Source of the DNA: Candidatus Accumulibacter conexus
GTDB taxonomy: Bacteria; Pseudomonadota; Gammaproteobacteria; Burkholderiales; Rhodocyclaceae
DNA: 60,530 nt
Reading direction: 5' to 3'
NCBI GenBank assembly: GCA_017592775.1
Contig: JAGFNJ010000032.1
Location: forward strand, 1 to 60,530
Shown here: one piece after another, positions 24,525-40,425 of the stretch
Layout of the letters: the number at the start of each line of letters is the position of its first letter
How positions within the stretch are numbered: position 1 is the first letter of the stretch
Position numbers and translations under genes: made by a program
The notes under the pieces: model-generated
Seen by the model: the letters and a program-made list of their open reading frames with translations, nothing else
What the model was told of the DNA's origin: nothing
Database searches by the model: none

Positions 24525-25208
24525 ATGAACGACGAACACAAGCAATCCATCCACCTGCCCTTCTCCGACAAGTACACCGATTCACACTCGCAGGAGTACT
24601 TCCAGAAGCATGATCGGAAGAAGCTTTCTGACCGGCTGGAGCATCGCATGGCGGCACGCGCGCTGGCACTCGCCGGCAACCCTTCGTCGGTGCTCGACCT
24701 GCCGTGTGGCACCGGCCGCTTCTGGTCGCTCCTGGCGGAGGACCCGAAACGGGAACTGCTGGCCGCCGATTACAGCCAGGCGATGCTCGACGTCGCCGGC
24801 AAGGTGCGCCCACCGGAGATCGCCAAACGATTCCGCCTGCTGCAGTGTTCGGCCTTCGAGATCAGCCTGCCCGATGCCCACGTGGACTGTATTTTCTCGA
24901 TACGCCTGATGCACCACATCGGCGACTCAGCCCATCGGGTCACACTGCTCAAGGAGTTTCATCGCGTCACCCGCGGCACCGTCGTACTGTCGCTCTGGGT
25001 CGACCGCAACTACAAGGCCTGGCGCCGCCGGCGCCTGGAAGCCAAGCGCCGGCGCGCCGGCGAAACGAGCGACAACCGGTTCATCATTCCGCGCCAACAG
25101 TTTGAACGCGAGTGCCGCGAGGCCGGTTTCGCCATCGTCGGTCACGTGGACTTCCTGCCCTGCCTGTTCATGTGGCGCGCCTACGTGCTGCGCAAGCTGC
25201 CCACCTGA
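24525..25208 (+). CDS. Class I SAM-dependent methyltransferase
   Basis: 227 residues with a Rossmann-type methyltransferase fold. Motif I VLDLPCGTGRFW binds SAM, motif II is LAADYSQAMLDVA, and SIRLMHHIGD is the post-motif region of Methyltransf_11-type enzymes. The substrate is unknown. The ATG at 24525 (MNDEHKQ) is preferred; 174 bp upstream to proB hold only a weak TATCCT promoter-like element. An LPS-kinase-like gene follows 25 bp downstream in the same direction, so envelope modification is a reasonable guess. Confidence 0.8.
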   Translation: MNDEHKQSIHLPFSDKYTDSHSQEYFQKHDRKKLSDRLEHRMAARALALAGNPSSVLDLPCGTGRFWSLLAEDPKRELLAADYSQAMLDVAGKVRPPEIAKRFRLLQCSAFEISLPDAHVDCIFSIRLMHHIGDSAHRVTLLKEFHRVTRGTVVLSLWVDRNYKAWRRRRLEAKRRRAGETSDNRFIIPRQQFERECREAGFAIVGHVDFLPCLFMWRAYVLRKLPT

Positions 25209-25233
25209 CAGCCGCCTGTTGCGGCCGCCACCC

Positions 25234-25965
25234 ATGAACGTGCGCGATCTGTTTCCGTCCGCGGCCGCACGGAGTGAACTGCAGCACCACCAGCTCGCAG
25301 GCTTCGACGCCTTGTGGTCGCTCGCCACCGACTGGCATGAAGCCCCCAACGAGAGACGCGGCGGCTGGAGCGGGGTCAGTCGGCATCTTCTCGACGACGG
25401 CAGCGCGATCTTTGTCAAACGACAGGAAGACCACCTCTGTCGAACGCTGCGCCATCCGCTCCGGGGCATCCCGACCTTCTACCGCGAATACCGCAACATC
25501 CTGCGCCTGCAGCGACTCGCCATTGGCACCCTGGAAGCGCTGTACTACGGCGACCGCCGAAAAGGTGGCCACTGGCAAGCCATCCTCGTGACCCGCGCTC
25601 TCGACGATTTCAGCAGTCTCGACGACTGGAACGTGGCCAACCCGCAGCCGACAGCACGACAACGCCAGTCGCTGATTGCTGCCATCGCCAGCGCCTGCGC
25701 TCGCCTCCACCGCCAGCGGCTGCAACACAGCTGCCTCTACGGCAAGCATGTCTTCGTCCGTCGCAGCCCGAGCAAACCAGAGGCTTACGAGGAGGACGAC
25801 GTTCGCCTCATTGATCTCGAGAAGCTTCGCCGCGGAATCAGCCGCGAGCGCGCCGGCGCCCATGATCTCGACCAGTTGCGAAGGCACACGAGCGGCTGGA
25901 ACGATGCCGACTGGCAGTTCTTCACCGCTGCCTACCGGCAGCAACTCGACCTTCTCCGGCGCTAG
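25234..25965 (+). CDS. InaA/LPS-kinase-family protein
   Basis: 243-residue protein of the kinase-like lipopolysaccharide kinase (Kdo/WaaP) superfamily, closest to InaA/YfiP types. Visible features are a Lys-containing N-lobe (FVKRQE), the family marker HSCLYGKHVFV (about 165-175, in place of an HGD loop) and LIDLEKLRRG (about 192-200), the DFG-equivalent. The canonical catalytic Asp of protein kinases is replaced, as is usual for InaA members, so catalysis is uncertain. It sits in a pair with the preceding methyltransferase. Its TAG stop shares bases with the convergent DUF190 stop (CTAG). Confidence 0.8.
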   Translation: MNVRDLFPSAAARSELQHHQLAGFDALWSLATDWHEAPNERRGGWSGVSRHLLDDGSAIFVKRQEDHLCRTLRHPLRGIPTFYREYRNILRLQRLAIGTLEALYYGDRRKGGHWQAILVTRALDDFSSLDDWNVANPQPTARQRQSLIAAIASACARLHRQRLQHSCLYGKHVFVRRSPSKPEAYEEDDVRLIDLEKLRRGISRERAGAHDLDQLRRHTSGWNDADWQFFTAAYRQQLDLLRR

Positions 25966-27511: not shown

Positions 27512-29338
27512 GTGTCCATTCCGAGAGCAAGCGCCGCACCGGTTTCCTCCCTGCGCATCTATCTTCGCCTGCTCGGCTATCTGCGACCGCTGCTCGGCCT
27601 GTTCGTGGTCAGCCTGCTCGGCTACCTGATGTTCGCCTCGTCACAGCCCATGCTCGCCGCCATCCTCAAGTACTTCGTCGATGGACTCAACGCGGCCAAG
27701 GGAAGCACGCAGTACTCGATTCCGCTGCTCGGCGAGCTCGAACTGATCTACGCCGTCCCCCTGCTGCTCCTTCTCGCCGTCACCTGGCAGGGCATCGGTT
27801 CCTTTCTCGGCAGCTATTACCTGGCCCGGGTATCGCTCGGCCTCGTCGACGACCTGCGGCGGGCGCTGTTCGACAGCCTGCTGCGGCTGCCAAACTCGTA
27901 CTTCGATCAGCACAACTCGGGACATCTGGTTTCCCGCATCACCTATGACGTGACCATGGTCACCGGCGCCGCGACCGACGCAATCAAGGTCGTCATTCGC
28001 GAAGGAATGACGATCGTCTTCCTTTTCGGCTACCTGCTGTGGATGAACTGGCGACTCACCCTCCTGATGGTCGCGATCCTGCCGATCATCGGCCTCATGG
28101 TGCGCAGTGCCAGCCGCAAGTTCCGCAAGCAAAGCAAGAAGATCCAGGTCGCGATGGGCGACCTGACGCACGTCGTGGCCGAGACGATCCAGGGCTACCG
28201 TGTCGTGCGCAGTTTCGGTGGCGAGGAATACGAATCGACCCGCTTCGGTGATGCGAGCGCGAACAATACGGCACGGCAACTGCGCATGGTGCGAACAGCG
28301 GCCAGCTATGGCCCGGCGCTGCAGTTCGTCACCTTCAGCACCATGGCGGCGCTGCTCGTTCTCGTCCTCCTGCTGCGCGGCGATGCCACCGCCGGCGACC
28401 TGGTCGCTTACATCACCGCCGCCGGCTTGTTGCCGAAGCCGATTCGCCAACTGTCTGAAGTCAGCTCGACCATCCAGAAGGGCCTTGCCGGTGCGGAGAG
28501 CATCTTCTCCCAGCTCGATGAATCGCCGGAGCCCGATCACGGGACCATCGAACGCGAACGTGTCAGCGGCCACCTCGAAATCCGTAACCTCGCGTTCACC
28601 TACCCGGGCGGCAGCCAGCGCGTTCTCGACCAAGTCAGCTTCGTCGTCGCCCCCGGGCAGATGGTGGCCCTCGTCGGACGCTCCGGCAGCGGCAAGTCGA
28701 CGCTGGCGAGTCTGATTCCCCGTTTCTACCAGCACGAATCGGGTCAGATTCTGCTCGACGGTGTGGCGGTCGAAGCCTTTACGCTGCGCAACCTGCGCCG
28801 GCACATTGCTCTGGTCACGCAACAGGTCGTGCTCTTCAACGATACGGTCAGCAGCAACATTGCCTACGGCAGCCTCGCCGACGCGCCGCGCAGCGCGATC
28901 GAGGCAGCCGCGGCAGCCGCGCACGCGCGCGAGTTCATCGACCGCCTGCCGGCCGGCTTCGAGACGCTGGTCGGCGAGAACGGAGTCATGTTGTCGGGCG
29001 GCCAGCGGCAGCGCCTGGCGATTGCTCGCGCCCTGCTCAAGGATGCACCGATCCTGATCCTCGACGAAGCGACCTCGGCACTTGACACCGAGTCCGAGCG
29101 CCACATCCAGAACGCCCTCGACCGCGTCATGGCCGGGCGCACGACGCTGGTCATCGCGCACCGGCTATCGACCATCGAGAGAGCGGACCAGATCCTCGTC
29201 ATGGACCAGGGCAGCATCGTCGAGCGCGGTACGCACGCCGAACTGCTGGCCGCCAACGGCCACTACGCGCGCCTGCATGCGATGCAGTTCGAGGAAGCGG
29301 AGGAAGCGCAGCAAACAACGCCAACGGCAGGCGGCTGA
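27512..29338 (+). CDS. msbA: Lipid A export ABC transporter MsbA
   Basis: 608-residue half-transporter that flips core-lipid A across the inner membrane. Six-helix ABC exporter domain about residues 15-325 (LPNSYFDQHNSGHLVSRITY is the intracellular coupling part). The ATPase has Walker A LVGRSGSGKST, signature [15 protein letters not shown], Walker B ILILDEATSALD and IAHRLSTIE. The start appears to be GTG 27512. It converges on an LPS core operon, which supports the MsbA assignment over a drug exporter. Confidence 0.92.
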   Translation: MSIPRASAAPVSSLRIYLRLLGYLRPLLGLFVVSLLGYLMFASSQPMLAAILKYFVDGLNAAKGSTQYSIPLLGELELIYAVPLLLLLAVTWQGIGSFLGSYYLARVSLGLVDDLRRALFDSLLRLPNSYFDQHNSGHLVSRITYDVTMVTGAATDAIKVVIREGMTIVFLFGYLLWMNWRLTLLMVAILPIIGLMVRSASRKFRKQSKKIQVAMGDLTHVVAETIQGYRVVRSFGGEEYESTRFGDASANNTARQLRMVRTAASYGPALQFVTFSTMAALLVLVLLLRGDATAGDLVAYITAAGLLPKPIRQLSEVSSTIQKGLAGAESIFSQLDESPEPDHGTIERERVSGHLEIRNLAFTYPGGSQRVLDQVSFVVAPGQMVALVGRSGSGKSTLASLIPRFYQHESGQILLDGVAVEAFTLRNLRRHIALVTQQVVLFNDTVSSNIAYGSLADAPRSAIEAAAAAAHAREFIDRLPAGFETLVGENGVMLSGGQRQRLAIARALLKDAPILILDEATSALDTESERHIQNALDRVMAGRTTLVIAHRLSTIERADQILVMDQGSIVERGTHAELLAANGHYARLHAMQFEEAEEAQQTTPTAGG

Positions 29339-29378: not shown

Positions 29379-30815
29379 TCAGGCGGCCGGCAGGCGATCG
29401 TCGAGCCAGCGGTGCAGGGCAGATCCGACTGGCCAGTTGCGCAACAGGCGCGCGCGGTCACGCCTCCAGGCACGGGAATGCGCCGCAGCCGATCGGTGCT
29501 GGACGACATCATCCAGATCGATGAGCCAGACCTGGCCGGCGTGCCAGAGCAGATTCATCGCCTTGAGGTCGCCATGCGTGATCCGCTGCCGATGCATCGC
29601 CGCAAACAGCTGGAGAATCGCACGCGCTTCGGCAGCCGGCGGTTCACGATCGGCAGCCAGATGCGACCACAGGTTCGCTCCCGGGCAGTACTCGCTGACC
29701 AGCCAAGCACGTCGACGCAGCGGCCCCAGGCGCTCCTCGATCAGCGCCAGTGGTGTCGGCGTCGCGATGCCGAAGAACTGCAGCCGGTGCGCTGCACGCC
29801 AGGAATGCCACGCGCGACTGGGACGCAACGCGCGTCGCAGCGCGTGGCCGACCCCCTTGATATTGTAGCGCTTGACCAGCAGCGGGCGGTCATCGACGAG
29901 GACCCGCGCAACCGTACTCGTGCCGCCGTCCTTGAGGATCCGTCCTGCCCCGATGGCTTCATCCGGAGACGCGATGACGGCTGCCAGCGAGCCAGCCTGC
30001 GCGCGCGCGACCGCGGTGAAACGAGCGGCAGTCTGGGTGACGGCGAACAGGCTGCAGTCGCGCACCGTCTTCGCCAGAAGGTCGCGCAAGCGCCACCGCC
30101 GGACCCTGGCTATCTGCTCGCGCAGGACTGACACGGACGGCAGGTCCATGCCAGCCCCGGCAGCATGGGCGGGCAGCAGCAGCGGCAACTCGTCGTCCCA
30201 TGCCGCAGGCAATTGCGCCAGCAGAACGGCCAGATTGGCAGTGACCTCGGGCAGCGCCAACGGCTGCCCCGGCCGATCAACCCGCAGCGCATCACCATCG
30301 ATGACGAAGATGCGCCCGGCATGGCGCAGGAAATTGCCGAAATGCAGGTCTTCGTGTACCAACCCTGCAGCGTGCAGGCAACCCAGGGTGTGCAGCAGTG
30401 GCAACAGGAGGGCGACGGCCCGCGCGTCGCCGGCCGGCCGGTCGCGCAACGCCTCCCAAGCCTGCGCGAAACTCTCGACCGGATCGAGAAAGTCCGTCAG
30501 CAGGGCATGGCCACCACCGGCAATCGGCACCGCCGCCCGCACCGCCGGCGTCGGGATGCCAGCTCGACGCAGCGCCGCCAGACCGGCCTGTTCGCGCTGC
30601 CAACGCCACTCAGCACGTTGCCCGATGAAGAGCTTGGCGAGCACGCGACCACCATCCACCTCCGCCTCGCCGACGAGACGCTTGCCAGGCAACACGCGCA
30701 GCAGACGACGCACGAGCAGCGCGCGACCGTCGGCCAGGACAACGCGAAAGGGCATCGGCACCGCCCGTCCTGCATCGCGGAGCGTGCGGGCGTCGGCCAG
30801 GGCAACTGCGGTCAT
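29379..30815 (-). CDS. Double LPS-kinase-like protein (two kinase domains in one chain)
   Basis: 478 residues with two successive WaaP/Kdo-kinase-like lobes. Domain 1 (about 20-230): Lys in RVLAKLFIG (61), HEDLHFGN (154-161), FVIDGD (DFG-like, Asp173). Domain 2 (about 295-475): Lys in LLVKRYN (315), HGDLKAMN (414-421), WLIDLDD (Asp433). Both keep the HxD...N and ID(G/L)D residues, so either could be active. It is the last gene of the lpxL-waaG-waaP-kinase operon, 22 bp after the preceding kinase, with GGAGG just before ATG 30815. A role in phosphorylating LPS core sugars is inferred from fold and context. A two-domain fusion is not the usual architecture of WaaP-type enzymes, which have a single domain of about 240-270 residues. 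Confidence 0.82.
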   Translation of the reverse strand: MTAVALADARTLRDAGRAVPMPFRVVLADGRALLVRRLLRVLPGKRLVGEAEVDGGRVLAKLFIGQRAEWRWQREQAGLAALRRAGIPTPAVRAAVPIAGGGHALLTDFLDPVESFAQAWEALRDRPAGDARAVALLLPLLHTLGCLHAAGLVHEDLHFGNFLRHAGRIFVIDGDALRVDRPGQPLALPEVTANLAVLLAQLPAAWDDELPLLLPAHAAGAGMDLPSVSVLREQIARVRRWRLRDLLAKTVRDCSLFAVTQTAARFTAVARAQAGSLAAVIASPDEAIGAGRILKDGGTSTVARVLVDDRPLLVKRYNIKGVGHALRRALRPSRAWHSWRAAHRLQFFGIATPTPLALIEERLGPLRRRAWLVSEYCPGANLWSHLAADREPPAAEARAILQLFAAMHRQRITHGDLKAMNLLWHAGQVWLIDLDDVVQHRSAAAHSRAWRRDRARLLRNWPVGSALHRWLDDRLPAA

Positions 30816-30837: not shown

Positions 30838-31611
30838 CTAATCCCGACCAGCGAAGAAACCGACGATCCGCCGGATCCGCTGTCGGTCGGTCGCCGTCAA
30901 TCGCTGCTGCTGTGCATAGTCGAGATAGAACCGCAGCCGCTGGCTGCGCGACAGCTGCGTCTTCGCCAGTTTGTCGAGACACGCAAGGTCCTTGATGATT
31001 CGGTAGCCAAGCACCGCACCGCGGTAGAAACCGCCGCTCGGGCAATCGATCAGGTAAACCGTCGGCACGGCAGCACCGTCCACCAGAAGATTGCGCCACT
31101 TGAGATCATTGTGCGCAAAGCCTGCATCGTGCAGCGTCCGCGTGATGGTCGCCACCTGGCGCAGGACCTGCGCCAGCCATTGCCGGTCGCGCAGTCGTGG
31201 ATCGCCGGCATGGGCCATCTCTGCCAAGTTCAGCGTGTCGCGGATTTCCTCGGTGATCAGCGCACCACGGGTGAACCGGCCCAGGCGGCGCTCCAGGCCA
31301 TAGGCGACGAGGGTTGCCGTCGGGATTCCCCAGGTCCGGAACGTCTGCAGATTCTGCCACTCGGCGCGCACCCGCTGCAGGCCAAACCAGCGACGCAGGC
31401 CGAACCAGCGGCGGATGGCGCTCTTGCCCTTGCCGCTGCCGGTGTAGCGCTTGACATAGTAGCGCCGGCCATCGACGCTGACGCGCAGGACACGACTGAT
31501 CAAATCGTGGGTGATGGGTTCGCCTTCCAGCGAGAACACCTGCTCGAGGCCAGCGAACAGGGTAGCTGCCGGACCGTGCGCGAAATCGGGATTGAGAAAC
31601 CAGTAGTTCAT
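30838..31611 (-). CDS. LPS core kinase-like protein (WaaP/Kdo kinase family)
   Basis: 257 residues with a single kinase-fold domain: N-lobe Lys in YYVKRYTGSGKGKSAIRR (about 54), catalytic loop HNDLKWRN (167-174) and YLIDCPSGG (DFG-equivalent Asp189). Predicted to phosphorylate an LPS inner-core sugar; the exact position is unknown. The ATG overlaps the preceding waaP-like stop as ATGA, showing tight coupling. The N-terminal 40 residues lack recognised motifs. Confidence 0.85.
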   Translation of the reverse strand: MNYWFLNPDFAHGPAATLFAGLEQVFSLEGEPITHDLISRVLRVSVDGRRYYVKRYTGSGKGKSAIRRWFGLRRWFGLQRVRAEWQNLQTFRTWGIPTATLVAYGLERRLGRFTRGALITEEIRDTLNLAEMAHAGDPRLRDRQWLAQVLRQVATITRTLHDAGFAHNDLKWRNLLVDGAAVPTVYLIDCPSGGFYRGAVLGYRIIKDLACLDKLAKTQLSRSQRLRFYLDYAQQQRLTATDRQRIRRIVGFFAGRD

Positions 31612-32432
31612 GTCATCTCGCCACGGGCAAGCTTGCGTTCGTAACGCGCCTGCAGCCGCTGCGCCGTGCGCTGCAGGCTGTCGAGCAGGGAGGGTTCCTG
31701 GCGCAGGACCAGGCGCAACGGCCGGGCGAAGTAGGCCCTGACGAAACGCAGCAGATCATTCCGCGTCAAGCCGATGCCGAGTGCCGAAAAATGGAGGGCG
31801 GCCAGATCCTTGTCACGCCAACGCCGTGGCGTCACCGCACGTACCTGTGCCCGATGCAGATCGATCAGTGACAGCCGCAGCAGTTCTGGCGTCGGCGGCG
31901 GATCCAGGTGGACGAGGAAGTGGCAGATATAGAAGTCGCGATGGTTGACACCGGCACCATGCATTCCCCGCGCCAGTTCGGCGACACGGCGGATCAACGC
32001 CCGTTTCAGCCCAAGCTCGGGCGGCCGCGTCACCCAGTCGGCACAGTAGTCCTCCAGGCTGGCGGTCGGCGCCAGTTCCTCGGTCACGATGAACGACGAC
32101 TGCCGCGCCGGATTCCTGCCTCGGCAGCCGCAGGCGACCACGCGCATGGTATCGACACCGCAGATGTTGAGGCGCTGCACTGCCTGCCACTCGCTCTGCG
32201 CGCCAAGCACCGGCAGGCGACAGCGAAGGAGATTCTTGGCGATCTCGGCCCAGCCGACGCCGCGATGAATCTTGACGAAATAGCCACGGCCGGCGACCTC
32301 CGTGCGCAAGGTGCGGCGTGCCTCGAGCTGGCGAAAGACCTCGCCCTGCAACGCCTCGACGGCGACGAACGGGTCCTGCCCGAACCACAGCGAACGGAAG
32401 GGTTCGTCGAGGTAGAGGAGACGCGCGCTCAT
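31608..32432 (-). CDS. waaP: LPS core heptose(I) kinase RfaP/WaaP
   Basis: 274 residues. It has the family-specific catalytic loop NHRDFYICHFLV (His164, Asp166), the DFG-equivalent LIDLHRAQVR and an N-lobe Lys in YFVKIHRGVGWAEI, all characteristic of RfaP, which phosphorylates heptose I of the inner core. The ATG overlaps the waaG stop by 4 bp. Order waaG-waaP is the same as in many gammaproteobacteria. Confidence 0.92.
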   Translation of the reverse strand: MSARLLYLDEPFRSLWFGQDPFVAVEALQGEVFRQLEARRTLRTEVAGRGYFVKIHRGVGWAEIAKNLLRCRLPVLGAQSEWQAVQRLNICGVDTMRVVACGCRGRNPARQSSFIVTEELAPTASLEDYCADWVTRPPELGLKRALIRRVAELARGMHGAGVNHRDFYICHFLVHLDPPPTPELLRLSLIDLHRAQVRAVTPRRWRDKDLAALHFSALGIGLTRNDLLRFVRAYFARPLRLVLRQEPSLLDSLQRTAQRLQARYERKLARGEMT

Positions 32433-33541
32433 TTCAGGATGACGTCGGCTGCGCGCTCGGCGTTGGCATAGATGTCGGCGACCTCGGCGAAGGCGAGGCC
32501 ATTGGCCTGCCAGCGGCGGCGCGCGGGCTCATCTGTGAGCATCCGGAGCAGGGTCTGGTCGAGGGAGGACTGCACGAAGGGCTCATCAATGACCACGCCG
32601 GCATCGGCCTCGACGATGTAATGCGCGTAGCCACAGACGGCGGTGGCAAGTACCGGCAATCCGGCAACCAGCGCCTCGAGCAGCACGGTGCCGGTGTTCT
32701 CGTTGTAGGCGGGATGCAGCAAGAGGTCGGCGCCGAGCAGGACGCGCGGAATGTCGCTGCGTCCCGGCAGGATGCGAACGCGTTCGGTGACGCCGAGCAG
32801 GCGTGCCTGGCCCTGGAAGAAGCGTGGGTCATCATCGCCGATGGCCAGCAGCAGACAGCGTGTGCGAAGCTCCGGCGGCAGCGCAGCCAGTGCCTTCAGA
32901 CTGCGGTCGAGACCCTTGGTCCGGAACCCCGAGCCCAGCTGCAGGAGCAGGAACTGGTCGCCACGCAACGCGAACTCGCGGCGCAGCGCCAACCGCACTT
33001 CCGACGCGTCCGGCGGCGCCCGCCGGTCCGGCGAGATGCCGGGCGGCAACAGGTGGAATCGCTCGGCAGCGGTACCATAACAGGTCTGGAAGAGACGCTG
33101 CTGCACCGGTGACAGAATCAGGATTTCCACCCCCGCATGCGGATCGAAGACCGCCCGCTCGTAAGCCGCGAAATGCCGGTAGCGTCCCGACAGGCGATAG
33201 AGCGGACCACGCTGGGTGCGGGCCTTCGCCTCGAAGCACGAGTCGGCAGCGAAATAGACGTCCAGTCCCGGCATCTTGTTGAAGCCGACGACACGTTCCG
33301 CGGGATGTGCCGCCAGATGGCTGTCCACCCAGTCGCTGAAGCGCTCGTAGCGGCGCCGGTTGGTCAACCCGCGAACCGGCACCAGGACGAGTTCGAAGCC
33401 GGCAGGAAGATCCCCGCGCCATTCCAGGGCATACACCCGGATCGCATGGCCGCGCGCCTGGCAGGCCAGCGCCACGCGGAGAAAATCGCGCTGCAGGCCA
33501 CCAAACGGAAAGTACTTGTAGAGACAGAAGGCGATCTGCAT
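32429..33541 (-). CDS. waaG: LPS core glycosyltransferase WaaG (GT4)
   Basis: 370 residues, GT-B fold. It opens MQIAFCLYKYFPFGGLQRDF, close to enterobacterial WaaG, and carries the GT4 nucleotide-sugar motif PAYNENTGTVLLEALVAG (ENxGxxxxEA). Predicted to add the first outer-core hexose to heptose II. The ATG at 33541 is the conserved start; the frame remains open 252 bp upstream in Arg/Ser-rich non-coding sequence. It lies 52 bp after lpxL. Confidence 0.92.
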   Translation of the reverse strand: MQIAFCLYKYFPFGGLQRDFLRVALACQARGHAIRVYALEWRGDLPAGFELVLVPVRGLTNRRRYERFSDWVDSHLAAHPAERVVGFNKMPGLDVYFAADSCFEAKARTQRGPLYRLSGRYRHFAAYERAVFDPHAGVEILILSPVQQRLFQTCYGTAAERFHLLPPGISPDRRAPPDASEVRLALRREFALRGDQFLLLQLGSGFRTKGLDRSLKALAALPPELRTRCLLLAIGDDDPRFFQGQARLLGVTERVRILPGRSDIPRVLLGADLLLHPAYNENTGTVLLEALVAGLPVLATAVCGYAHYIVEADAGVVIDEPFVQSSLDQTLLRMLTDEPARRRWQANGLAFAEVADIYANAERAADVILK

Positions 33542-33593
33542 CAGGAACCATCGCTGCCGACATCGAGGGATGAGCAGCAGCGCTGCCAAATCA

Positions 33594-34463
33594 TCACGGC
33601 GCCTGCTCGCATTCGGGAAGCGGCAGGGCTTGGCTGCGACGACGCCCCTTGTAACGATTGTAGCCCCAGAGGTACTGCCCCGGGCACTGGCGAATGAGCT
33701 GCTCGATCTCGCGATTGATCTGTTGCGCCCGTTCTTCAATCGTGCCCTCGATCGCTTGCGTCGGCGCCTGCAGATGAAAATGATAGCCGGCACCGCCTGG
33801 AAGCCGCTCGGCCCAGACCATGACCACGGTCGCGCCGCTGCCGGCCAGTCGCGCCGCCAGCGTCATCGTGTACGCCGGTTTGCCGAAGAAGTCGAGCCAG
33901 CGCCCGTCGCCAGATTTCGGCACCTGGTCGGGCAGCATGCCGACCGCTTCGCCACGCTTGAGCGCCTTCAGCAGGCTGCGCACTCCCGACAGGTCGGCGG
34001 CGGCCAGATGCAGCTGTGCCCGCGCCCGACCGTCTTCAATCAGCTTCTGCAGCCACTCCCGCTTCGGTGGCCGATAAAGGCACGTGATCGGCGCCTGGGT
34101 GGACAGGTACTGTGCCGTGATCTCGAAGCAGCCCAAGTGCGGTGTCAGGTAGAGAATTCCCCTGCCTCGCCGCGTCGCCGCCTCGACCAGATCCCAGCCG
34201 GAAACCTCGACCACCCTCGCTGCCGTCTCGGCCAACGGCCGCAGCCAGACGCGCGTCAGTTCCAGCCCCGTCTTGCCCGCTTCGCCGATGGCGACCGGTC
34301 GTACCCGCCGCGCTTCTTCCTCGCCGAGCGCGAGCTGCATGTTTTCGTCCATGTGGCGGCGATAGGTCGGCGAGCACAGCCAGACGAGCCAGCCGAGCGC
34401 GGCCCCGAGCGCATGCAGCCAGGAAAGTGGCAGGTGGCCAAGGAGGCGAAACAGGATACGCAC
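33594..34463 (-). CDS. lpxL: Lipid A biosynthesis acyltransferase (LpxL/HtrB family)
   Basis: 289-residue inner-membrane acyltransferase that adds a secondary acyl chain to lipid A. N-terminal membrane segment (LLGHLPLSWLHALGAALGWL), HX4D/E-type motif in LTPHLGCFE, and GMLPDQVPKSGDGRWLDFFG. The start is taken as GTG 34463, with GGAAG five bases upstream and the family-typical N-terminus VRILFRLLGHLPL. An ATG at 34562 would overlap the metK promoter. First gene of the envelope operon, divergent from metK. LpxL and LpxM cannot be firmly distinguished. Confidence 0.9.
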   Translation of the reverse strand: MRILFRLLGHLPLSWLHALGAALGWLVWLCSPTYRRHMDENMQLALGEEEARRVRPVAIGEAGKTGLELTRVWLRPLAETAARVVEVSGWDLVEAATRRGRGILYLTPHLGCFEITAQYLSTQAPITCLYRPPKREWLQKLIEDGRARAQLHLAAADLSGVRSLLKALKRGEAVGMLPDQVPKSGDGRWLDFFGKPAYTMTLAARLAGSGATVVMVWAERLPGGAGYHFHLQAPTQAIEGTIEERAQQINREIEQLIRQCPGQYLWGYNRYKGRRRSQALPLPECEQAP

Positions 34464-34525
34464 GCGGTCTTCCGAAGATGGCAGGGAATGGATGATGCGG
34501 CACAGGCGTGCAGCAGAGCACGCTT

Positions 34526-34555
34526 TTGACTGAGCGCAGCGAGAAAAAGTATAAT
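34526..34555 (+). promoter_or_regulatory. Sigma70 promoter of metK
   Basis: TTGACT (34526-34531), an 18-base spacer and a perfect TATAAT (34550-34555). It would give a leader of about 140 nt before the metK start codon. Confidence 0.75.
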
Positions 34556-34562
34556 TATCCAT

Positions 34563-37390: not shown

Positions 37391-39313
37391 TCAGTCCTCG
37401 TCGCCGTCGCCGCCCGCATCGTCGCCGACATCGCTCTCGCGCCAGCGTCGTGCCTCGAATGAATTGCGCCGCCAGCGAGACAGCAGCGGGAAGATGGCAA
37501 GGAAGATCAGCAGCAGCACGTAGTTGGACCAGCCGCTCGGGTTCCGTATGACCTCGATGGTATCGATGACAGCGTCACTGTTGTCACTGCCGAGTTCGTA
37601 TTCGATCACCAACTGGTAGGTTCCCGCCGGCACCGCCCGGAACACCAGTTCGTCGGCCGGCGATCCTTCGCTCCAGCTCTCACCGTCTTCGACCCCCTTG
37701 TAGTGGCTGATCTCCTGCAGGCCGAGATGCGCCTCGCCGGTGTTCTTCTCGACGAGTGTCGTGTTAACCGACACCCAGTTGTTGGTGACGCTGGTCTGGT
37801 GCCGAACGAGCAGCGCCCGGGCGCGGCTTTTGAGAATGAACTCCTGGCTGGTCAGCGTCGCCTCCTCGTTCTGTGGCGAGAGAACGACGCGCTGCCTGAG
37901 CAGCAGTTCGGAAGCCAGGAGAAAGGTGAAAGCCAGTTGCACCAGGGTCGCCGCCAACACCAGTTTCCAGAACAGACGACAGGTCTGGCGATGCGTCTCG
38001 ACCAGGGGATTCGGCTGGTTGGCACAGACCTCCCTGCGCTGTGGCGACGGCGTCTTGACGCCAAAGGCGGCGCACAGCTCGGCGGGCTCCAGGTACTCGG
38101 CCTGTGACCAGGTCGATTCGCGCTCATTGACCTCGCGTGACAGCATCAGCGGCGGGCAGATGTAGTCGTCGACAACGCAGCGCTCGCCGACCGTCACCCG
38201 CCAGTAAAACTCGCCAACGACGTAGATCACCTCGGCCGCGCCATGGTTGAAGAGGCGAAATTCCCGCCCGGCGTGGATGAACTTCGCCTCGCCGCGGCTG
38301 ACGACGGGTGGATGCGGCAGGCTGCGCGCAAGGTTCCAGTGGCCCTGATACTCGACCAGCCAGGCAAAGCCCTCCTGCACGTTGTACAGGAGGTACTCCG
38401 ACCACGAGCAATCGGGCCCGCCGGAACTCGAGCTGCGCCGCATGAAGCCGATCACCCGCCAGTCGTTGCCGCGCAGCTGGCCCGCACTGCCGAGCGGCAG
38501 CCAGGGCGCTTCACGCAGTGCCTGCGCGGCCCGTGAGAGCAGACTGAGATGCTCGTTCTCGACACCGATGATCGAACCGCAGCTTTCGCAGCCAATGCTT
38601 TCCGTTGCCGGCGAATGAATCGTCAGCGCTGCCGCACAGTGCGGACAGTTCAATGCACGCGCCGCGACCTGCCGCACCGCCGCGGCCGACGGCTCCTGCA
38701 CGTCCCTGAGCTTGTCGAGCTGCAGGTCGGCGAAAGCAACCGACTGGCCGACAAAGACCAGCGGCGGCGTCTCGCTGTAATCGATCGTCAGGAAGCGATC
38801 GTTGCCCCGCAGGTCGGCAGTATTGACGTCGTAACCCGCGGCGACGCGGAAAGGCAGTTCACCCTCGCCGGCAATGCAGCGCGCGGTCGCCAGGTCGGTG
38901 ACAATGAATCGCCGGCCGTCGAGAGTGACCGGCATCTCGGGCACCAGCGTCGCGAACGCCGGCAATGGATCTCTGACTGCGACCTGCGCGCTGACGACCA
39001 GCTCGCCCGACGCTTCGGCAAGCCAGGCGCTGCGCCCGTCATCGAAGAGGATGTGCCACTCGTTCCAGACACCCGATTCGTACTGCAGCTGGATGCGGCC
39101 GACGACCGCGAAATGGCGCTGGCGAAAACGGCCCTCGCTGCCAATCCGGATCAGCGAGCTGTCCTCGAGCAGTTCGGCCATTCGCCCGATGTTCTGCAGA
39201 TCCTCGCCGCTGCGCAACAGCGTGCTGCGGCAGAAATCGCAGACGACATACAGCGAGGTCGCGGCGCGAAAGACGACCGGCGCGCCACAGGACGGGCAGC
39301 TGGCTCTCTTCAC
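37391..39313 (-). CDS. DUF4178 protein with two zinc ribbons and membrane anchors
   Basis: 640 residues. Zinc ribbon 1 at the N-terminus (CPSCGAPVVF ... CDFC), then DUF4178 domain 1 (about 55-190), zinc ribbon 2 (CPHCAAALTI ... CESC, about 220-245), DUF4178 domain 2 (about 270-420), a membrane helix (LFWKLVLAATLVQLAFTFLL), an extracytoplasmic region (about 490-590) and a second membrane helix near the end, with an acidic tail. The ribosome site is weak and the start is GTG. Function is not known. In other bacteria DUF4178 proteins co-occur with SPFH and DUF350 proteins, exactly as here, implying a membrane-organising or envelope-stress complex. Confidence 0.85.
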   Translation of the reverse strand: MKRASCPSCGAPVVFRAATSLYVVCDFCRSTLLRSGEDLQNIGRMAELLEDSSLIRIGSEGRFRQRHFAVVGRIQLQYESGVWNEWHILFDDGRSAWLAEASGELVVSAQVAVRDPLPAFATLVPEMPVTLDGRRFIVTDLATARCIAGEGELPFRVAAGYDVNTADLRGNDRFLTIDYSETPPLVFVGQSVAFADLQLDKLRDVQEPSAAAVRQVAARALNCPHCAAALTIHSPATESIGCESCGSIIGVENEHLSLLSRAAQALREAPWLPLGSAGQLRGNDWRVIGFMRRSSSSGGPDCSWSEYLLYNVQEGFAWLVEYQGHWNLARSLPHPPVVSRGEAKFIHAGREFRLFNHGAAEVIYVVGEFYWRVTVGERCVVDDYICPPLMLSREVNERESTWSQAEYLEPAELCAAFGVKTPSPQRREVCANQPNPLVETHRQTCRLFWKLVLAATLVQLAFTFLLASELLLRQRVVLSPQNEEATLTSQEFILKSRARALLVRHQTSVTNNWVSVNTTLVEKNTGEAHLGLQEISHYKGVEDGESWSEGSPADELVFRAVPAGTYQLVIEYELGSDNSDAVIDTIEVIRNPSGWSNYVLLLIFLAIFPLLSRWRRNSFEARRWRESDVGDDAGGDGDED

Positions 39314-39354
39314 GAGTGGCGGGCCGGCGCCGTCAGTCGGTCAGGCGGTTCGAA

Positions 39355-40371
39355 TCAACCCAGGCGGCCCAGCAACTCTGCCTTCTTGGCGTCGAACTCG
39401 GCCTGCGACAGGATGCCCTTGGCCACCAGTCCATGCAGCTTCTCGAGCGTTGCCACGACTTCGTCGGCATTGCCCGTGGCTGCCGGCACTGCCGCCGGTG
39501 CGGCAGCTACGGTGGCCTGCGCCATGGCCGCGGTCATCGTCTGACCAATTCCCAGCCCGGCGCCCAGCCCGGCGCCGATACCGGCGATGCCGCCTTCATT
39601 CTGCGCCGCCAGCGGAATGCTGGTCGCCACCTGGTATTGCGTGTACCGTCCGAGATCGCCAATCATGTTCATGCCGATCCGCGTATCGAGGATCTTCTGC
39701 AGTTCCTCGGGCAGCGAGACGTTCTGCACGACAAAGCTGTCGAGCGCCAGCCCGTAACGTTCAAAAACGCCCTCGAGCCTGCTCTTCAGCTGCCTGCTCA
39801 GCTCGTCCTGATTCGCCGCCATGTCGATGAATGGAACCCCGGACTCGCCGAAGAGGTCGGTCATCGAGCTGATGACCAGGTTGCGCAGTTGGCCATCGAG
39901 GTCGGCAACGGTGTACTGCTCACGCGTACCCGAGATCTCGCTGTGGAACTTGCGCGCATCGGCGAGCCTGTACGAGTAGATGCCGAAGGCGCGCATGCGC
40001 ACCATCCCGAAGTCCTTGTCGCGGATGGTGATCGGGTTGGGCGTTCCCCACTTGCAGTCGAGCTGCAGGCGAGTGGAAAAGAAATAGACGTCCGACTTGA
40101 AAGGCGACTCGAACAACTTGTCCCAGTTCTTGAGATAGGTCAGCACCGGCAGTGTTCGCGTCGTCAGCGTGTACAGACCGGGACCGAAGACGTCGGCGAT
40201 CTGGCCTTCATTGATGAAGACGGCCATCTGCGATTCGCGAACCGTCAACTGCGCGCCATACTGGATCTCGAAATCCTGCATCGGGTAACGCGTTGCAAGC
40301 ACCCCGTCTCCCTCCTCGGTCCACTGAATGACATCGACGAACTGCTTCCTGATGAAATCCATGAGCGCCAT
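39355..40371 (-). CDS. SPFH/Band-7-like protein with C-terminal SHOCT domain
   Basis: 338 residues of the YdjI/'virion core' branch of the SPFH superfamily: MALMDFIRKQFVDVIQW start, a beta-rich SPFH core (about 30-250), a Gly/Ala-rich low-complexity linker (GIGAGLGAGLGIGQ), then a C-terminal SHOCT-type motif (LVAKGILSQAEFDAKKAELL). No obvious membrane helix. Such proteins assemble into membrane-associated scaffolds. The ATG at 40371 has AGGAG upstream; a longer start at 40386 lacks one. Third position in the DUF350-SPFH-DUF4178 run. Confidence 0.88.
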   Translation of the reverse strand: MALMDFIRKQFVDVIQWTEEGDGVLATRYPMQDFEIQYGAQLTVRESQMAVFINEGQIADVFGPGLYTLTTRTLPVLTYLKNWDKLFESPFKSDVYFFSTRLQLDCKWGTPNPITIRDKDFGMVRMRAFGIYSYRLADARKFHSEISGTREQYTVADLDGQLRNLVISSMTDLFGESGVPFIDMAANQDELSRQLKSRLEGVFERYGLALDSFVVQNVSLPEELQKILDTRIGMNMIGDLGRYTQYQVATSIPLAAQNEGGIAGIGAGLGAGLGIGQTMTAAMAQATVAAAPAAVPAATGNADEVVATLEKLHGLVAKGILSQAEFDAKKAELLGRLG

Positions 40372-40425
40372 GGCGATCTCCTGCAAACAAGTTGTGGCGA
40401 CCTGCCGCCGCCAGGGAGGAATCCG

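Follow-up and report, generated by a model that had tools for sequence, protein, structure and literature searches.

Two kinase domains in one putative lipopolysaccharide core kinase of Candidatus Accumulibacter conexus, a candidate counterpart of Pseudomonas aeruginosa PA5006

Core kinases of Pseudomonas and the locus of the tandem gene

Phosphates of the lipopolysaccharide (LPS) core bind the outer membrane together via Mg2+, and core phosphorylation has been reported as essential in P. aeruginosa. A set of kinases placed under arabinose control by DeLucia in 2011 (mBio) reportedly included PA5006. In P. aeruginosa this gene belongs to the order wapG-waaP-wapP-wapQ-PA5006 (PMC8707732 section 2.7; PMC8005017 Table 1). 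The portions of PMC8707732 that treat PA5006 describe a putative kinase with strong two-hybrid interactions with PA2576 and with itself, and the two-hybrid fragment 300-493 implies a length of at least 493 residues. Furthermore, PA5006 was essential in all three Tn-seq conditions of an earlier transposon study, as tabulated in PMC9866376, where waaP, wapP and waaG are likewise entered as essential and PA5007 is not; the same source gives a 7.6-fold induction of PA5006 by RpoH. PSPTO_4997 of P. syringae is listed as unknown/kinase in the table of PMC8005017, yet section 2.2 groups it with putative glycosyltransferases. In the portions of PMC8707732 and PMC8005017 concerned with them, PA5006 and PSPTO_4997 are described as one kinase and two domains go unmentioned. 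Searches of mostly open-access literature yielded no account of LPS kinases that have two domains or are fused.

The window, that is the whole stretch of 60,530 nucleotides analysed here, contains a gene for a protein of 478 residues with an N-terminal and a C-terminal kinase domain (N-kinase and C-kinase; Table 1). This gene is taken as the counterpart of PA5006 because the order waaG-waaP-wapP-(inaA-like)-fusion matches that of P. aeruginosa; a place beside these genes was found in the window and in most loci of the 80 best of at least 543 named relatives, the inaA-like gene in part of them only. Pseudomonas-clade relatives among these best 80 align with the window protein over its whole length at 44-52 % identity. 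Our main reading, to which we assign a probability of roughly 0.6, is that its product is a kinase of the LPS inner core with two domains, equivalent to PA5006 of Pseudomonas.

The surroundings of the gene are those of core LPS synthesis. Among the best 80 named stretches (of at least 543), WaaP was present in 77, WaaG in 75, WapP in 62 and an InaA-like kinase in 37, and the gene directly upstream of the fusion, scored in 77 of these loci, encoded WapP (28), the InaA-like kinase (27) or WaaP (19), with none or a contig edge in three. In a sample drawn from the class, 6 of 25 stretches with N- and C-kinase lacked WaaP in the bases examined, some of them being short contigs. The genome of the window itself yielded exactly five Kdo/WaaP matches, all within the window: WaaP, the InaA-like and the WapP-like kinase, and both halves of the tandem protein. 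As side observations, the InaA-like kinase of the window reads HSCLYGKH where WaaP has HRDFYICH, such that Cys replaces the catalytic Asp, and adjoining genes at 37391-40386 code for a protein with DUF4178 and for one of the SPFH/Band-7 type that ends in SHOCT.

Table 1. Coordinates of the tandem gene, its motifs, its neighbours and the longer WapP fusions found in other contigs (window positions unless a locus is given)
Feature	Position	Strand	Basis
Tandem LPS-kinase gene (PA5006-like), 478 aa	29379..30815	(-)	ORF, Pfam, AlphaFold
N-kinase domain, residues about 18-272	30000..30764	(-)	Pfam Kdo 23.3 bits alone; AF2 pLDDT 94.8, best PDB match WaaP 6dfl
K61, predicted ATP-binding lysine of N-kinase	30633..30635	(-)	kept in 88/88 aligned relatives
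HEDLHFGN, predicted catalytic loop of N-kinase, residues 154-161	30333..30356	(-)	D156 and N161 88/88; H154 is Q in 66/88
IDGD, predicted metal motif of N-kinase, residues 172-175	30291..30302	(-)	D173 88/88
C-kinase domain, residues about 283-472	29400..29969	(-)	Pfam Kdo 58.1 bits alone; second kinase fold in full model
K315, predicted ATP-binding lysine of C-kinase	29871..29873	(-)	87/88
S338, aligned to WaaP E78 (alpha-C glutamate), Glu absent	29802..29804	(-)	alignment to 6dfl
HGDLKAMN, predicted catalytic loop of C-kinase, residues 414-421	29553..29576	(-)	D416 and N421 87/88
IDLD, predicted metal motif of C-kinase, residues 432-435	29511..29522	(-)	D433 88/88
WapP-like LPS kinase, just upstream, same operon-like run	30838..31611	(-)	Pfam Kdo 63.3 bits
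WaaP (heptose I kinase)	31608..32432	(-)	NCBIfam RfaP 412.9 bits, cut-off 170
WaaG-like GT4 glycosyltransferase, start uncertain	32429..33793	(-)	Pfam Glycos_transf_1 103 bits
LpxL-like acyltransferase, head of run	33594..34562	(-)	NCBIfam NF006487 402.3 bits, cut-off 281
MsbA lipid A flippase, convergent neighbour	27512..29338	(+)	NCBIfam MsbA_lipidA 796.1 bits, cut-off 602
InaA-like single-domain LPS kinase nearby	25204..25965	(+)	Pfam Kdo 160.6 bits
WapP fused before N- and C-kinase, frames stop to stop	L106:2296-5283, L108:2325-5339, L110:7920-10088

Two kinase folds in one reading frame

The open reading frame starts with ATG and contains no internal stop. AlphaFold2, given a 77-row alignment, predicted two successive kinase folds for the full protein and not a single one (mean pLDDT 95.2, pTM 0.89); the fold of the C-half was seen as part of this model, and the PDB search covered the full model and the N-half. 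Modelled alone, the N-half was predicted with a pLDDT of 94.8 and a pTM of 0.88, and its best PDB match was WaaP (6dfl; E 7.1e-10, TM 0.49 by query). For the full model, Foldseek placed a duplicated EGFR kinase (9p9u) at the top, followed by Rio2 and PRPK, with WaaP at rank 6. The former, EGFR-KDD, is a eukaryotic kinase-domain duplication that also carries two kinase folds per chain; however, it is a tyrosine kinase with 13 % identity, and the likeness of layout is by chance. Scored alone, both halves pass the Pfam PF06293 Kdo/WaaP cut-off of 21.3 bits, the C-half with 58.1 and the N-half by a narrow margin with 23.3 bits, and the search of the genome lists them as separate matches (57.5 and 23.0 bits). 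Despite its narrow pass, the N-half has a clear predicted fold, and its catalytic residues vary less than those of the C-half. Thus, the claim of an earlier note on this DNA that one protein holds two lobes of the LPS-kinase family is borne out, as is its remark that the two domains differ; they share 26 % identity over 133 aligned profile columns. Among four single-domain or partner profiles compared by hhalign, the C-half was nearest to WapP (94.1), while the N-half was nearest to the C-half (score 88.0), scores that bear on a possible origin of the halves by internal duplication.

Assignment to a described single family was less straightforward. The protein stays below the RfaP equivalog cut-off for WaaP (NF011703, 170 bits; whole protein 23.1, C-half 19.8). 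KdkA, the Kdo kinase, is the best NCBIfam match of both the whole protein and the C-half, yet under its cut-off (NF002475, 142 bits; 60.4 and 54.5, respectively), and the NCBIfam search of the halves gave no KdkA match for the N-half. InaA (NF007383, cut-off 235 bits) is not among the 18 NCBIfam families matched by the protein, and Bud32 (TIGR03724) comes second in NCBIfam with 56.2 bits, short of its cut-off of 125. The last of these matches bears on a different reading, namely that the gene encodes a RIO/Bud32-like protein kinase or ATPase which would regulate LPS assembly and would not phosphorylate sugars. It draws on further scores above cut-off, i.e. RIO1 (PF01163, cut-off 22; whole protein 48.9, C-half 32.2, with the N-half failing at 19.5), Pkinase (whole protein 36.2, cut-off 31.7) and APH (C-half 26.9, cut-off 23.2), and on PRPK/Bud32 being among the best structural matches of the full model and of the N-half. 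However, the best family match of the whole protein is Kdo/WaaP with 77.7 bits, and the gene sits at a constant position among genes of the LPS core and is found fused to WaaP and WapP, which makes a RIO/Bud32-like regulator very unlikely. The RIO1, Pkinase and APH matches are those of kinase-superfamily relatives, which score less than Kdo both over the whole protein and in its C-half.

The earlier note had treated the fusion of two domains as an oddity and had asked whether two normally separate genes could have been joined here by an assembly error. The distribution of the gene speaks against both. A scan of named genomes gave at least 543 relatives among 590 candidate stretches; the best 80 of these are the most similar by design and form a list of best hits rather than a sample, and in all 80 the two domains share a single frame (77 as N- plus C-kinase, three with WapP in front). 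Their sources include Accumulibacter, Propionivibrio, Thauera, Pseudothauera, Aromatoleum, Azoarcus, Azonexus and Dechloromonas, among others, as well as Pseudomonas, Halopseudomonas, Stutzerimonas and Azotobacter. Within the genus, 25 of 28 genomes have a match, of which 24 are full-length in one frame, closed or near-closed genomes included (G010, G016 in one contig), and one is a C-half at a contig end (G024); G002, G018 and G019 have no match, although G018 is 100 % complete. At family level, matches above 370 bits were counted in about 36 of 150 genomes. Still, separate C-halves do exist in some lineages (14 of 51 C-family matches, see below), and in one genome of the same family the start and the end of the tandem are read in frames that overlap (G461:C1:590421-591832; residues 4-154 and 154-479), which may be a frameshift, a split gene or a sequencing error. 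Given the full-length copies of the genus and the one-frame architecture of the best 80 named loci, we reject an artefact of assembly or sequencing as practically inconceivable; the fusion of the window is real and old. Judged by these relatives, the two-domain architecture belongs to an existing gene family, widespread and poorly described, and there is nothing unusual about the window gene within it. That known LPS kinases are single-domain proteins, as the earlier note stated, holds mostly for the WaaP and InaA proteins found here, but the tandem is the normal form of the PA5006-like family.

Conservation of the catalytic residues

Both halves contain the kinase motifs that had been noted from the sequence, comprising K61, E75, H154-E-D156-L-H-F-G-N161 and I172-D173-G-D175 in the N-half, and K315, H414-G-D416-L-K-A-M-N421 and I432-D433-L-D435 in the C-half. 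Their conservation was followed in 88 aligned relatives, i.e. the best 80 of at least 543 named loci plus eight further loci from the genome search, the window included and redundancy kept. K61, D156, N161 and D173 were invariant, and E75, which corresponds to the alpha-C glutamate E78 of WaaP, was kept in 87 (Asp in one); in the C-half, K315, D416 and N421 were kept in 87 and D433 in all 88. The core catalytic residues are retained in both halves. The earlier note needs a correction for the histidine of the N-half HxD motif, which is Gln in 66 and His in 22 relatives. The sole row departing at K315, D416 and N421 is an Accumulibacter copy, L024 (L024:1501-2925), whose C-half lacks the Lys, the catalytic Asp and the Asn while its N-half is intact; genome G007, from which it comes, has a further copy as an incomplete match (L028).

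A second correction concerns the alpha-C position. WaaP (RfaP, 6dfl) shares with the window protein the fold, the Lys, the HxD motif and the metal Asp; in contrast, it is a single domain, has H168 where N- and C-kinase have Asn, and possesses the alpha-C glutamate that the C-kinase lacks. Residue 338 of the C-half was Ser in 81, Ala in 6 and Gly in 1 of the 88 relatives and Glu in none. The WapP-like kinase of the same operon, the closest partner profile to the C-half, retains the region of the alpha-C Glu (QxEWxN), and its gene stands apart from the tandem here. The pattern was followed further in a class-wide set of 369 genomes, whose stretches were profiled for N, C, WaaP, WapP, InaA-like kinase and WaaG. 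Alpha-C Glu was found in none of 51 class-wide C-domains, whether fused or standing alone; the residue was Ser in 32, Ala in 8, Cys in 7, Gly in 2 and Asn in 2. The Lys, catalytic Asp, Asn and metal Asp were each kept in 48-49 of these 51, and three rows had a dead or altered C-domain (L202, L208 and the second copy of L212); the corresponding N-domain residues were kept in 33 of 33. Because N is kept throughout, C departs in three of 51 rows, and two N-bearing proteins (L161 and L163) have no recognisable C, the N-kinase seems to be the constant part of the tandem and the C-kinase the one subject to loss, separation or renewed fusion.

The N-kinase, fully equipped in its predicted residues, looks the more surely active half, and given the absent alpha-C glutamate the C-kinase may be weak or regulatory. 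One could go further and suppose that the N-kinase alone is active, with the C-half a pseudokinase-like or weak domain that would hold, place or regulate the N-kinase or a fused WaaP. The lack of the glutamate in every C-domain, the dead or altered C-halves of L202, L208, L212 and L024, and the constancy of the N residues are consistent with such a role. Yet a scaffold would not need the Lys, Asp, Asn and metal Asp that are kept in 87-88 of the 88 relatives and in 48-49 of the 51 class-wide C-domains, and all 14 stand-alone C-kinases keep these four residues, a separate existence that speaks for the C-half as an enzyme. We consider an N-kinase that alone is active rather unlikely, although with the glutamate absent and some C-halves dead, regulation by the C-half is conceivable in some proteins. 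For comparison, PMC6147952 reports that cells with WaaP E78A were viable but had their EDTA sensitivity shifted 128-fold.

Varied fusions of the C-kinase and a proposed role in the inner core

In the class-wide set, 51 C-family matches of at least 100 bits were found in 50 genomes, the next match under this threshold being a WapP with 74.6 bits. They comprise 28 N+C proteins (among them the two copies of G278, and that of G416, in which a contig end leaves 42 residues of N), 14 C-kinases alone, five WaaP+C and four WaaP+N+C proteins. The four triples (L194, L195, L196 and L197, from G062, G423, G195 and G402, respectively) have WaaP, N- and C-kinase in a single frame and keep the tested Lys, Asp, Asn-or-His and Asp residues in all three parts; likewise, the five WaaP+C proteins keep the tested catalytic residues in both. 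Two genomes of one genus differ in this respect: in G076 (L201) a fusion joins WaaP and C, and in G226 (L205) they are separate neighbours whose genes overlap; L201 and L205 are sisters in the C-domain tree. In this tree, an N+C protein is also the sister of two triples from its own family. As to independent origins of the fusions, the well-supported branches require two or more changes for WaaP+C and likewise for WaaP+N+C, but the bootstrap had not converged, the backbone is weak and several rows have long branches. Taken by these architectures, the C-kinase is a mobile module, a trait that is new here.

WapP takes part as well: in three Rhodocyclaceae contigs, i.e. three of the best 80 named loci, it precedes N+C in one frame (Table 1), and by eye its part keeps the Lys, HGDLKWRN and IDC motifs; in L106 an insert lies within the WapP part. 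A second kinase match also shares a frame of 1055-1081 codons with the tandem in G428, G490 and G537 of the same family, and WaaG glycosyltransferase and WaaP kinase were seen in one frame in six stretches (L146, L147, L148, L163, L213 and L222). Across relatives, N and C distances correlate (r 0.87 over 3741 non-independent pairs), as related species would show anyway.

Proteins that are repeatedly fused in varied arrangements usually act on one pathway. Since the C-kinase is fused to WaaP, to N, or through N to WaaP or WapP, and this within a core-LPS operon, serial inner-core kinases are the simplest account, and sequential phosphorylation of the inner core beside WaaP and WapP is the likely role. 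Like WaaP, the protein would act in the cytoplasm, on lipid A-core at the inner membrane and before the flip by MsbA. There, both the N- and the C-kinase would use ATP to phosphorylate the inner core, following WaaP and WapP or acting alongside them, and their fusion would keep successive phosphorylations on one enzyme, with the C-kinase either working without the alpha-C glutamate or being the weaker partner. Points that weigh against this reading are the absent glutamate, the C-halves that are dead, altered or no longer recognisable, the N+C stretches that lack WaaP, and the missing match in G018. What the earlier note proposed beyond this, namely two different core sugars, processive action or control of one domain by the other, is conjectural.

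Which phosphates these would be is a matter of a more speculative proposal. Both P. aeruginosa and P. syringae DC3000 have di- and triphosphates in their core. The single-domain kinases WaaP, WapP and WapQ would fit the three known heptose positions (HepI O-2, HepI O-4 and HepII O-6), which would leave the two domains for the di- and triphosphates. Accordingly worded, the proposal is that N and C of PA5006-like proteins might turn the monophosphates of WaaP, WapP and WapQ into core di- and triphosphates, with C as a phosphate-on-phosphate kinase and with WaaP+C, WaaP+N+C and WapP+N+C as one-chain builders of oligophosphates. Against it, the core of P. syringae pv. phaseolicola is described, in the part of the literature that bears on it, as having three stoichiometric phosphates only, with the cluster reported conserved. 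Moreover, in genomes with WaaP+N+C a WapP is often missing from the vicinity, and the sites of WapP may then be all that N and C act on. We thus regard the oligophosphate proposal as unlikely, and return to sequential inner-core phosphorylation as the preferred reading.

Following from this analysis, PA5006, an apparently essential putative core-LPS kinase, would be a member of a tandem-kinase family, and the repeated fusion of the C-kinase to WaaP, directly or through a triple chain, would tie the PA5006-like gene to the WaaP step. The family bears on the question of who makes the core di- and triphosphates. In addition, it offers natural one-, two- and three-kinase forms for biochemistry, in which the predictions made here could be tested half by half.
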